This document shows, in pieces, positions 96 through 15,961 of a DNA stretch of 33,066 nt. Where the stretch lies: NCBI GenBank assembly GCA_027717985.1, contig JALLOO010000008.1, positions 1-33,066 of the forward strand, written 5' to 3'. The first letter of the stretch is position 1, and every line of letters begins with the position of its first letter. This DNA comes from Patescibacteria group bacterium AH-259-L05 (GTDB lineage: Bacteria; Patescibacteriota; Patescibacteriia; UBA2591; UBA6264). The notes below the pieces were generated by a model. That model had not been told where the DNA came from. It did not search any database and was given only the letters and a program-made list of their open reading frames with translations. The translations under genes were made by a program, and so were the position numbers.

Positions 96-455
96 ATGAA
101 CACGAAAACAACGCTTTCAATTTCAGAAGCAAGAAAAAAAATATTTACCATAGCTAAAAAGGTTCAAAAACCATCAACGCATTATACCTTAACTGAAAAG
201 GGCAAGCCCAAGGTTGTTATGATGTCTGCTGAAGAATTTGAATCGTGGGAAGAAACACTCGAGGTAATGCGCGATTTTCCTGATTTGATGAAAGACATTA
301 AAGAGGTAGAGCGAGATATAAAAACCGGTGCTTACAAAAAATATACTCCGCTCGAAGATATTCTTGTAGAAGAGGGGTATATTCTGACAAATAAAGGCGG
401 AAAATATGAGTTATCGAATAAGGCTAAAACCAAGCGCAGAAAAGGATCTCGCTAA
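96..455 (+). CDS. Type II antitoxin, Phd/YefM family
   Basis: N-terminal LSISEARKKIFTIAKKVQ...KGKPKVVMMSAEEFESWEETLEVM is typical Phd/YefM; paired with downstream RelE-like toxin. Confidence 0.88.
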   Translation: MNTKTTLSISEARKKIFTIAKKVQKPSTHYTLTEKGKPKVVMMSAEEFESWEETLEVMRDFPDLMKDIKEVERDIKTGAYKKYTPLEDILVEEGYILTNKGGKYELSNKAKTKRRKGSR

Positions 456-660
456 AATTCCGCAACGCGATCGCGAACGCATTTTTGCTGAATTAGCTGG
501 TCTTACAACAAATCCTTATATTGGTAAAAAGTTAAGTGGCAAGTATAAGGGCCGTTACTCAATTCAGGTTTGGCCATATCGTATTATTTATCAAATTTAT
601 AAAAAAGAGCTTTTAATTATTGTTATTCGCATTGGCCATCGCCAAGGAGTTTATCAGTAG
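406..660 (+). CDS. Type II toxin, RelE/ParE superfamily
   Basis: YRIRLKPSAEKDLAKIPQ...LSGKYKGRYSIQVWPYRIIYQIYKKELLIIVIRIGHRQGVY; overlaps the antitoxin ORF by 50 nt. Confidence 0.88.
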   Translation: MSYRIRLKPSAEKDLAKIPQRDRERIFAELAGLTTNPYIGKKLSGKYKGRYSIQVWPYRIIYQIYKKELLIIVIRIGHRQGVYQ

Positions 661-684: not shown

Positions 685-718
685 TTAAAGCAAAAAGCCC
701 GCTACTCAGCAGGGCTTT
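685..718 (-). terminator. Intrinsic terminator downstream of the 53-aa micro-ORF
   Basis: AAAGCCC...GGGCTTT stem followed by T-tract on the minus strand. Confidence 0.7.
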
Positions 719-778: not shown

Positions 779-940
779 CTACTTTACGACCGTTTCGAGA
801 ATCTCAGCGATGCCAATCGGGTCAGAGAGATAGAGGAGAATAGAAAAAATAAAAGCTACAACTACTACAGCGAGTACATTGTCAACCATGTCTTTAAACC
901 ATTCAGTGATATCTAAAGAACGTTGATATTTTTTGTTCAT
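779..940 (-). CDS. 53-aa single-TM microprotein MNKKYQRSLDITEWFKDMVDNVLAVVVVAFIFSILLYLSDPIGIAEILETVVK
   Basis: Translated by hand from minus strand; SD GGAGGG upstream of ATG, consensus promoter, downstream terminator; absent from the ORF track because of length. Confidence 0.75.
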   Translation of the reverse strand: MNKKYQRSLDITEWFKDMVDNVLAVVVVAFIFSILLYLSDPIGIAEILETVVK

Positions 941-967: not shown

Positions 968-1009
968 ATAATTACACTGTAATTATACAAAATCGTAAAG
1001 ATTTGTCAA
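968..1009 (-). promoter_or_regulatory. Promoter TTGACA-N16-TATAAT with palindrome ATAATTACA-C-TGTAATTAT (968-986) overlapping the -10
   Basis: Direct reading; same architecture at 2270-2311. Confidence 0.8.
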
Positions 1010-1050: not shown

Positions 1051-1950
1051 ATGAAAGTTATGATAACTGGCGGTTCAGGGTTTATTGGGCAAAACCTCAC
1101 TGCTGCGTTATTACAAAAAGGTTATGAGGTTACTATTGTAAATCGCCATGCTTCAAAACAAAAGCAGGTCGCCTTTTATGATATTGATTTAGTTCAATCT
1201 GAGATACCTGATGAGATTTTCTCAGATGTTGATGCAGTTATTCATTTGGCAGGAGCTAATATTTTTGGGCGATGGAGCAAGCGCAAAAAACGCGCAATTT
1301 ATCACAGCCGTATTGCAGGAACACGAAATCTCGTATCTGCCATTAGTGCCTTGAATCAAAAGCCAAAAGTTTTGATCTCTGCTTCAGCTGTTGGATTTTA
1401 TGGAGATAGGGGAGAGGACAAGCTTGATGAATCCTCAAGCTCTGGCAAAGATTTTCTAGCTCATGTGTGTATTGATTGGGAAAAGCAAGCTCGCGAAGCT
1501 GAGAAATGTGGTCTTCGAACCGTACAAATTAGAACTGCTCCTGTCTTAGGACACGGAGGATTTTTGAGAAAAATTGTGCCGATATATAACTTAGGTCTTG
1601 GCGGCCCGATTGCAAGGGGGAAGCAGTGGTTTCCCTGGATCCACATGGCTGATATTGTTGGTGTGTATATGTTTGCCTTAGAGAACGAGGCCATTGCTGG
1701 GCCAGTGAATGCATGTTCGCCTCAGCAGATTAGAAACATAGACTTTTCAAATGCTTTGGCCAAAGTTTTGAAAAGGCCTGCATATTTGCGAGTACCTAGA
1801 TTGGCCTTAAAGCTCGTTTTAAATGATCTGGCAAGCGTTGTTTTAGCAAGTCAAAAAGTGTATCCAAGAAAACTCAACGATTTTGGATATAAATTTATCT
1901 TTCCTAACATTGAAAAAGCATTGGAAAATCTTTTTATAATTGGAGAATAA
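1051..1950 (+). CDS. NAD-dependent epimerase/dehydratase, TIGR01777 (YfcH-like)
   Basis: MKVMITGGSGFIGQNLTAALLQKGYEVTIVNR; GANIFGRWSKRKKRAIYHSRIAGTRNLV; SASAVGFYGDRGE. Confidence 0.9.
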   Translation: MKVMITGGSGFIGQNLTAALLQKGYEVTIVNRHASKQKQVAFYDIDLVQSEIPDEIFSDVDAVIHLAGANIFGRWSKRKKRAIYHSRIAGTRNLVSAISALNQKPKVLISASAVGFYGDRGEDKLDESSSSGKDFLAHVCIDWEKQAREAEKCGLRTVQIRTAPVLGHGGFLRKIVPIYNLGLGGPIARGKQWFPWIHMADIVGVYMFALENEAIAGPVNACSPQQIRNIDFSNALAKVLKRPAYLRVPRLALKLVLNDLASVVLASQKVYPRKLNDFGYKFIFPNIEKALENLFIIGE

Positions 1951-2095: not shown

Positions 2096-2130
2096 AACTA
2101 AACTGTCAGGTTGAACCTGTTAAATAAAAC

Positions 2131-2158
2131 AAAAAAGCCCTCACTTGGTGGGGCTTTT
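2131..2158 (-). terminator. Intrinsic terminator that overlaps the 3' end of the 32-aa micro-ORF
   Basis: Minus strand AAAAGCCCCACCAAGTGAGGGCTTTTTT. Confidence 0.75.
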
Positions 2159-2239
2159 GTGGTTCTTAGATACCTCGGAGCGGTTAATTTCCAAAGCGAT
2201 AACAACAGCTAATAGTAAGAGGACAAGAGCGGCGCCCAT
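2141..2239 (-). CDS. 32-aa hydrophobic microprotein MGAALVLLLLAVVIALEINRSEVSKNHKSPTK
   Basis: Translated by hand; SD GGAGGG; 5'UTR and promoter nearly identical to the 779-940 cassette. Confidence 0.65.
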   Translation of the reverse strand: MGAALVLLLLAVVIALEINRSEVSKNHKSPTK

Positions 2240-2269
2240 TGTTTTCCCTCCATATTGTGGAATGAACTG

Positions 2270-2311
2270 ATAATTACAGTGTAATTATACAACACCTTAA
2301 AAATCTGTCAA
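2270..2311 (-). promoter_or_regulatory. Promoter TTGACA-N16-TATAAT with palindrome ATAATTACA-G-TGTAATTAT (2270-2288)
   Basis: Direct reading; duplicate of 968-1009 architecture. Confidence 0.8.
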
Positions 2312-10144: not shown

Positions 10145-11353
10145 CTACTCTACGCCTGAAAGTGTAAGAGCTTCCTGCTTCACAGTCGAGGGCAACCCCT
10201 CAACTCCACAGGCGTTACTTCCCGTAGTCCCTACGGTAGTTAAACCTAAGGTAAGAATATTTCTGGCTGCGTTTACATCTCTGTCTATGGTTAAGCCGCA
10301 TTCAGAACATTGGTGGATTCTGATGGCCAAGGATTTAGGAACTGCTTTTCCGCAACCAGAGCACATTTGAGATGTATTCTGGGGATTCACTCCTATAACA
10401 TACACACCAGCTTCTTCCGCTTTGTACGTAAGCATGTGTAGGAATGTACCCCAAGAAACATCAGTAATTGATTTTGCTAAATATTTGTTCCTGATCATAC
10501 CTTTGATGTTTAATTTCTCAAAGGCAATGAATTGAAAGGTATTGACCAGAGATCTGCTTACTTTATGTAAAAAATCTGTTCTTTGATTATATATTCTTTC
10601 ATGTAATTGAGCTACCTTTAATCTTGATTTGTTTCTGTTTTTACTCGTTAGTTTCTTTTTGGAATGTTTTCTTTGAATCTGCACCAATTTTTCTTCTGAT
10701 TCTCTTAAATATCTCGGGTTATCTACTTTGTTTTCTTGAGAAGTGGTTACAAAATTGTTCAAACCTACGTCAATGCCGATCATATGTTCTTGCTTGATAT
10801 TTTCAATCTTTGGTTTATCTGGTAATTCTTGATCAATCTCAACTGAGAAACAAGCATACCATTTATTTGTGTTTGTTCTCCTGATGGTTAAAGTTTTAAT
10901 CGTTCCTTTCATTTCTCGATGAAGTATAATTGTAACAGGGCCAATTTTAGAAAGAGTAAGTTTGTTGCCCTTTACTGCAAATCCTGATTGCGGATACACC
11001 AAACTATCATATCTGTTTTTCCCTTTAAATCGTGGATATCCTGGTTTCTGAGTTTTTCCATTCTTATTTTCTACAACTCTTCTAAAAAAGTTTTGAAACG
11101 CTTTATCTAAACGTCTGGGAACATCTTGTAACACCTGAGAGTATATTTCATGTAATTCTGGCTTTTGGTTTTTAAGCGCTGGTAGTTGTTTTATCTGATC
11201 AAAACAAGAAATCTTTGTTTTATCCTTTTCATACGCATTTCTTCGTTGTGCTAAGCAATGATTGTATAGCCAGAGGCAAGAGGAGAGGATTTTTTCAAAA
11301 GTTTCCTGCTGTGTTTTAGTTGGATAGAGTCTGTATTTATAGGTTCGTTTCAT
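10145..11353 (-). mobile_element. tnpB: TnpB (IS200/IS605 OrfB family RNA-guided nuclease), apparently intact
   Basis: RuvC motifs MIGIDVGLNNFVT, FIAFEKLNIKGM, DRDVNAARNI; zinc finger CSGCGK...CSECG; start MKRTYKYRLYPT at 11353. Confidence 0.93.
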
Positions 11354-11357
11354 ATAA

Positions 11358-11969
11358 TTAGTTTCCCTCACTCGTAAAGTGAATAATGTTTTTTACTTCT
11401 CCGACAATGTGAAAATTTTCATCTTTCTTTACCACTTCATGAGTATATTTTGGATTTAAAGATTCTAACACAATATGTTTCCCTGCAAATATAATCTTTT
11501 TGATTTTTGCTTCGTGGTTATGAATCACAATACCCAGTTGGCCTGATCTCACCTGTGTTTGTTTGACTGCTAACACCAGATCATTTTCAAATATCCTGGG
11601 CTCCATTGAATCGCCTCGGGCCTTAACTAAAAACACTTGATCTGAAACACCAAACACTTTGGTAGAAAGCGGTATCCGATCAATTACATTTTCTTGTACC
11701 AGTAGTCCGTTTGGCCCGCACTGAGCCATACCATAGAGATTAACATAGGTTAAGTCTTCTACTGGATCTTTAAGAACAGTGTAGTCTTGCGGGTAGGCTG
11801 GATTTCGCCGAAGATATCCTTTTTTCTCAAGCTGATTAATATGGTAGAGAGCGGTATTAGGTGAGTTCACCCCTATTTCTTGAGCTATATCTCTCAGCGT
11901 CATACCCCTAACACCTTTTTTAAGTACATTGAGAATTATTTTTTGTTTAGGGTGAAGTTTTTGAATCAT
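11358..11969 (-). CDS. LexA/UmuD-like S24 autopeptidase repressor with N-terminal winged helix
   Basis: LRDIAQEIGVNSPNTALYHINQLEKKGYL; YGMAQCGPNG (Cys-Gly candidate cleavage site); KARGDSMEP (Ser) and HNHEAKIKKI (Lys). Confidence 0.88.
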   Translation of the reverse strand: MIQKLHPKQKIILNVLKKGVRGMTLRDIAQEIGVNSPNTALYHINQLEKKGYLRRNPAYPQDYTVLKDPVEDLTYVNLYGMAQCGPNGLLVQENVIDRIPLSTKVFGVSDQVFLVKARGDSMEPRIFENDLVLAVKQTQVRSGQLGIVIHNHEAKIKKIIFAGKHIVLESLNPKYTHEVVKKDENFHIVGEVKNIIHFTSEGN

Positions 11970-11997
11970 ACATTTTGTTTTAAAATATATTTATTCC

Positions 11998-12047
11998 ATC
12001 CTATATTTTATAGGATAAAATATATCTTGTCAATTAAGTTATCCACA
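11998..12047 (-). promoter_or_regulatory. lexA-like promoter TTGACA-N17-TAAAAT with palindrome ATCCTATA-TTT-TATAGGAT (11998-12016) and TTATCCACA box (12039-12047)
   Basis: Direct reading; palindrome overlaps the -10. Confidence 0.75.
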
Positions 12048-15935: not shown

Positions 15936-15961
15936 TGAATCGCTTTATATGTGTTAAATCA

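Follow-up and report, generated by a model that had tools for sequence, protein, structure and literature searches.

BoxA-type elements are known mainly from rRNA operons and from a few mRNAs. In mRNA leaders, boxA has been described as a binding site of NusB/S10 in E. coli suhB and other genes; in Citrobacter koseri it has also been described ahead of a gene for a ParE-like toxin, and 0-7 putative sites of the strict form GYTCTTTAANA occur per genome in the gamma-proteobacteria (Baniulyte et al., 2017; PMC5725501). The cassettes described here, two of them in the window (the whole 33,066-nt stretch of DNA that was analysed) and one in a sister species, carry an instance of a comparable motif: GYTCTTTR lies near transcript 5' ends, is strand-specific and is present in the rRNA leaders of relatives. 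The difference is that it takes here a looser form, seen on dozens of leaders in a single genome of 1 Mb and again throughout the class, and that the copy within the cassettes, GTTCATTCC, is an off-consensus variant. Another comparison can be made with integron and superintegron cassettes, whose genes are likewise small, self-contained and exchangeable and often consist of orphan ORFs or of toxin-antitoxin pairs. The present units (1 and 2 in the window, 3 in the sister species) have, however, no attC-like repeat, and what is conserved in them is the promoter, the leader and the terminator; the same genome does contain, on contigs C21 and C22, distinct arrays of small genes that have intergenic repeats in common, but units 1-3 make no use of these repeats. 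Finally, SidA of Caulobacter is a small membrane peptide induced by the SOS response. The window resembles that system in having short single-TM peptides under a putative dyad operator as well as a LexA gene, although the LexA dyad found here, ATCCTATAAAATATAGGAT, is unrelated to the dyad of the cassettes.

Architecture of the two cassettes in the window

The sequence-only reading had described two minus-strand units, each with TTGACA-N16-TATAAT, a dyad fused to the -10 hexamer and the same leader, followed by an ORF (53 aa in one unit, 32 aa in the other, without relation between the two) and by a terminator. All these elements were confirmed (Table 1), and the similarity between the two ORFs does not rise above that of shuffled sequences, either in nucleotides or in protein. 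The common 28-nt leader, which terminates in GGAGGGAAAA, is matched 28/28 only at units 1 and 2 in the whole 1.03-Mb assembly (next best match, 21/28), and a repeat comparison within the window showed the promoter-leader block to be the only repeat that the two units have in common, sequence identity ending at the start codon. The 70-nt blocks of both units differ at six positions, five of them among the 16 of the -35/-10 spacer and one among the 54 elsewhere (Fisher p=0.002), the latter being the central base of the dyad.

Table 1. Features of the cassette locus, in window coordinates.
Feature	Position	Strand	Remarks
YefM/Phd-ParE toxin-antitoxin pair	96..660	(+)	TGTACA dyad promoter ~49-69, fully conserved in the sister species G001
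Unit 1 intrinsic terminator	690..718	(-)	Stem 698-713, ~65 nt beyond the stop codon
Unit 1 ORF	779..940	(-)	53 aa; single hydrophobic segment, KD19 2.57
Unit 1 leader CAGTTCATTCCACAATATGGAGGGAAAA	940..967	(-)	BoxA-like GTTCATTCC 957-965; SD GGAGGG 944-949
Unit 1 dyad ATAATTACAGTGTAATTAT	968..986	(-)	Putative operator across -10/+1
Unit 1 -10 hexamer TATAAT	982..987	(-)	Spacer 16 nt
Unit 1 -35 hexamer TTGACA	1004..1009	(-)	
TIGR01777-family SDR gene	1051..1950	(+)	Between units 1 and 2; G001 orthologue 91-91.5% identical
Unit 2 terminator block	2126..2164	(-)	39/39 match to the block that follows the third cassette, G001; stem 2133-2158, overlapping the final codons and stop codon of the 32-aa ORF
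Unit 2 ORF	2141..2239	(-)	32 aa, N-terminus hydrophobic (KD19 2.43)
Unit 2 leader	2242..2269	(-)	28/28 identical to unit 1 leader; boxA-like GTTCATTCC 2259-2267; SD 2246-2251
Unit 2 dyad ATAATTACACTGTAATTAT	2270..2288	(-)	Putative operator
Unit 2 -10 hexamer TATAAT	2284..2289	(-)	Spacer N16
Unit 2 -35 hexamer TTGACA	2306..2311	(-)	

Each unit would constitute an autonomous cassette, formed by a near-consensus sigma-70 promoter, the dyad, the leader, one membrane-peptide ORF and an intrinsic terminator. A repressor bound to the dyad at -10/+1 would block RNA polymerase, expression being presumably high otherwise, and the short leader would combine the boxA-like element with a strong SD.

As for the peptides, the 53- and 32-aa ORFs and the 80-aa ORF of the third cassette all start at an SD and contain a segment with a KD19 of at least 2.4; among background small ORFs, no more than 3.2% have a value of 2.3 or higher. 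No homologue of the 53- and 80-aa peptides was found beyond their own genome among 381 genomes of the class, and no family of Pfam, PHROGs, NCBIfam or PADLOC scored above cut-off; all three peptides are orphans. The 53-aa ORF was considered as a SecE and rejected, its score being below the family cut-off and the true SecE of the genome lying on contig C61 (68 bits). The ORF of unit 2, which runs into its terminator, could be a decayed remnant. A conflict role, as toxin-like or exclusion peptides, might tentatively be envisaged for highly expressed, switchable and fast-replaced membrane peptides located beside a toxin-antitoxin pair.

A third cassette in the sister species

The copy number initially given for the cassettes, two, holds for the present assembly, but a further copy exists in the sister species G001, the only other genome of the genus. 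Both this genome and the present assembly (G000, 1.03 Mb) are fragmented MAGs, 75-78% complete (77.5% for G000), and together they hold only three cassette copies. The third cassette (G001:C113:1688-2061) lies in the corresponding neighbourhood, where the order is SDR, ParE, YefM and then the cassette, divergently oriented and directly upstream of the toxin-antitoxin pair. Its promoter, TTGACG-GATTTTTAAGGTGTTG-TATAAT, has the spacer of unit 2 and a single altered base in the -35; its leader core, GTTCATTCCACAATATGGAGGG, agrees with those of units 1 and 2 at every position (22/22), and the terminator block of 39 nt matches that of unit 2 at 100%. Within this frame stands an ORF of 80 aa with two TM segments, unrelated to the 53- and 32-aa ORFs (all pairs at shuffle level). 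The change is concentrated in the dyad: comparison of unit 2 with the third cassette shows 4/19 dyad positions altered versus 1/89 over the -35 and -10 hexamers, the spacer, the leader and the terminator (p=0.003), and the complementarity of the dyad arms is down to 6/9.

The flanks of the cassettes are syntenic, since C113:2096-8173 of G001 aligns with contig C14 of G000, from base 1 of the latter, at 81-90% identity (87-90% in the longest blocks); between the toxin-antitoxin pair and the SDR gene, G001 has no equivalent of unit 1. The YefM-ParE coding region is only ~70% identical between the two species, whereas the flanking genes reach 87-91%. In G000, contig C62 begins just upstream of the toxin-antitoxin pair and the gap between C62 and C14 coincides exactly with the position of the third cassette of G001, while contig C113 of G001 terminates within the shared terminator sequence; assembly breaks of this kind would be expected in both genomes from repeated shells.

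At least three cassettes are thus present in one neighbourhood of this genus, with a common shell and unrelated ORFs, and two of them, one from each sister species, have identical terminators. The proposal that a control module is combined with different coding sequences is in this way strongly supported, the promoter, leader and terminator surrounding in G001 a third unrelated ORF. Because the same shell and the same stop signal enclose a different gene there, the coding sequence of a fixed shell has apparently been replaced. The reading that we prefer, with a probability of about 0.6, is that of an expression shell with replaceable ORFs for short membrane peptides, whose leader bears a boxA-like element. 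The homologous ends of the shell (promoter and leader on one side, terminator on the other) would permit replacement of the ORF by recombination or local rearrangement, the shell would be retained while the peptide turns over, and the boxA-like leader RNA would contact Nus factors. Neither a recombinase nor a recombination site was identified for cassettes 1-3, and a scan of G000 for the tyrosine recombinase box was empty.

Other repeats and arrays have also been observed in this genome. About 12 promoters of small unrelated genes have GGGTTGGGGAAAAGTGG immediately ahead of the -35, in most cases just after a terminator that ends in CCTCGCTTTTT; they are located on contigs C2 (L108), C17 (L031), C18 (L032), C21 (L058), C22 (L059) and C34 (L071). 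On C22, repeats of ~130-150 nt lie between small genes, among them Gp49-like/HTH and HicA toxin-antitoxin genes, and arrays of this type can be read as integron-like or otherwise mobile cassette arrays, with no tyrosine recombinase seen. In the small-gene array of C21, a 45-nt unit is repeated in tandem to give seven copies, most of which are 100% identical (L058:4000-4408). In the window itself, a dispersed repeat of ~60-85 nt with AACTTCAAGGTTCTGACGAGCGAAGCGAG, possibly a REP/MITE-like element, is found at 2484, 13430, 13925 and 16271 and, inverted, at 15959, 17576 and 24608, and a TnpB/OrfB-like gene occupies positions 10145-11371.

The dyad and the alternative explanations

The best surviving alternative, although an improbable one, is a small regulon in which one dedicated repressor, not encoded nearby, acts on the ATAATTACANTGTAATTAT operator of two membrane-peptide genes. 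In both copies, the dyad ATAATTACA-N-TGTAATTAT is a perfect 9-1-9 palindrome fused to the -10, far beyond chance (two exact matches in the window; 0.11 in shuffles at <=3 mismatches), and in units 1 and 2 it is likely a real operator, because perfect dyads over the -10 are rare in G000 (6/174 promoters versus 1.5 expected). Promoters of the TATAATTACANTGTAAT type point in the same direction: TTGACA-N-TATAATTACANTGTAAT was found in 23 GTDB contigs, from Firmicutes and other genomes, and precedes there genes for TetR, Fur-like regulators, RelB- and CopG-type antitoxins and lipoproteins, so that such dyads can be operators. These downstream genes are, on the other hand, unrelated to one another, and therefore the dyad is convergent and points to no particular regulator. 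In addition, no further copy of the dyad was detected in the 1.03 Mb of G000 at <=3 mismatches of the 23-mer (next best, 15/18), nor is any intact operator located upstream of a regulator gene in this assembly, both copies belonging to the locus of units 1 and 2. The search for the module beyond the window had two outcomes: the dyad was absent at <=1 mismatch from 193 relatives, which leads to the rejection of a widespread operator regulon, but the third cassette was recovered from G001 with another ORF. Since the dyad is precisely what that cassette has lost, the sharing can be explained without a single dedicated repressor, and the operator, real as a dyad in two copies, is dispensable. The earlier suggestion of a regulon under one dedicated repressor has consequently not been borne out, with two intact operators only, none of them at a regulator, and a third dyad decayed to 6/9.

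Several particular candidates were also discarded. Control by BlaI/MecI/CopY was rejected, as PF03965 has no match in the 77.5% complete G000, and LexA/SOS control was rejected because the dyad of the lexA promoter is unrelated to that of the cassettes. The LexA-like repressor gene of the window (11358-12030, minus strand) has this promoter dyad, ATCCTATAAAATATAGGAT, and a second lexA-like gene (L066, G000:C29) has GTCCTATAAAATATAGGAC, sharing the lexA dyad and not the cassette dyad; both genes speak in that respect against the regulon, and the two sequences suggest the LexA box of this species. Four dyad matches in viral contigs lie inside genes or have no promoter context, three of them being ...VIIPKG coding sequence on the opposite strand.

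Less likely still is a scenario in which a promoter segment was recently copied, by local duplication or gene conversion, to a place before meaningless ORFs, where there would be transcription only or the RNA would be the product. The copies are indeed within 1.3 kb of each other, no family matches the orphan peptides, and the stop codon of unit 2 is inside its terminator. However, the spacer has diverged (5/16) and the leader and operator have not, which is not what a recent and simple copying of the entire block would leave; moreover, 3/3 ORFs start at an SD and are strongly hydrophobic, and the shell and the terminator are retained in a second species. Finally, type I-like toxin genes, that is, short hydrophobic peptides whose common leader would be the target of one antisense RNA, are very unlikely: the small hydrophobic ORFs with strong SD, the identical leaders and the adjoining type II toxin-antitoxin pair would agree with them, but no other locus is complementary to the leader (next best match on either strand, 21/28), the window has no Rfam match and the leader folds are not above shuffles.

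A boxA-like motif in the leaders of the class

The leader of the shell contains GTTCATTCC, an instance of the strand-specific motif GYTCNTT (unsupervised consensus, TGTTCTTTAAAA). A genome scan of G000 with GTTCRTTYC gave seven sites provided with promoter and SD. When starts were called from consensus promoters and SD, and not from mapped transcripts, an unbiased 6-mer test found GTTCTT in 25 of 143 promoter-SD-ORF leaders against ~1.0 expected, on a par with the SD, and random-seed EM returned two motifs only, the SD and GtTCtTt.aaa. Out of 232, the motif appears 51 times in sense, 6 in antisense and 0 in reversed orientation, and the held-out half at 8 bits gave 35 sense and 7 antisense sites, with 2.9 in shuffles. 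Its distance after the -10 is variable, mostly 6-23 nt and up to 39, and this variability, together with the strand specificity, is as for an RNA element. Folding of the leader as a stable hairpin is no stronger than in shuffles, and the exact leader and terminator are absent from viral contigs.

The likeness of this motif to boxA can be expressed in the scores of its PWM, which are 13.6 bits for the textbook E. coli boxA and 12-16 bits for the rrn leaders of relatives, the own rrn element of G000 being weaker (9.7 bits). The forms of the rrn leaders are GTTCTTTACAA in G004 and G005, GCTCTTTTAA in G003 and GTTCGTTGACAA in G000, and no boxA-like element is evident in that of G006. The cassette GTTCATTCC reaches 11.6 bits with the EM matrix, 26th of 230 leaders, and shows several departures from GYTCTTTRANA. 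The motif is also enriched in the leaders of G006, which belongs to another family, and weakly in those of G004. In the class as a whole, which is placed as CPR-like from the size of its genomes, the pattern TTGACA-N24-44-GYTCNTT-N6-30-GGAGG is present in 236/381 genomes. By a count of rows by eye, ~25 genomes of the class have a control match, and in the 26 members of the order the matches amount to 87 versus 1 for the reversed control. The strict published boxA pattern yields 6 leader sites in G000, so that the excess of the motif lies in its looser form. NusB is present in G004, G005 and G006 and was not detected in G000 or G001, each ~75% complete. No boxA literature on this bacterial group was found in an incomplete coverage of the literature.

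The presence of the motif on many unrelated genes implies that the leader is no marker peculiar to the cassettes; rather, GTTCATTCC appears to belong to a boxA-like motif common at the mRNA 5' ends of the class, to which NusB/S10 would be predicted to bind. It is a more tentative proposal that boxA-type elements are routine on ordinary mRNAs of the class, with loading of the NusB/S10 type on much of the transcriptome, in addition to shells whose ORFs are swapped between species. A shell of promoter, leader and terminator with an exchanged ORF would show directly how genes for orphan small proteins originate or are exchanged, and the leader motif would make testable a genome-wide role of boxA-like RNA in an uncultivated class of small genomes whose transcription control is almost unstudied.
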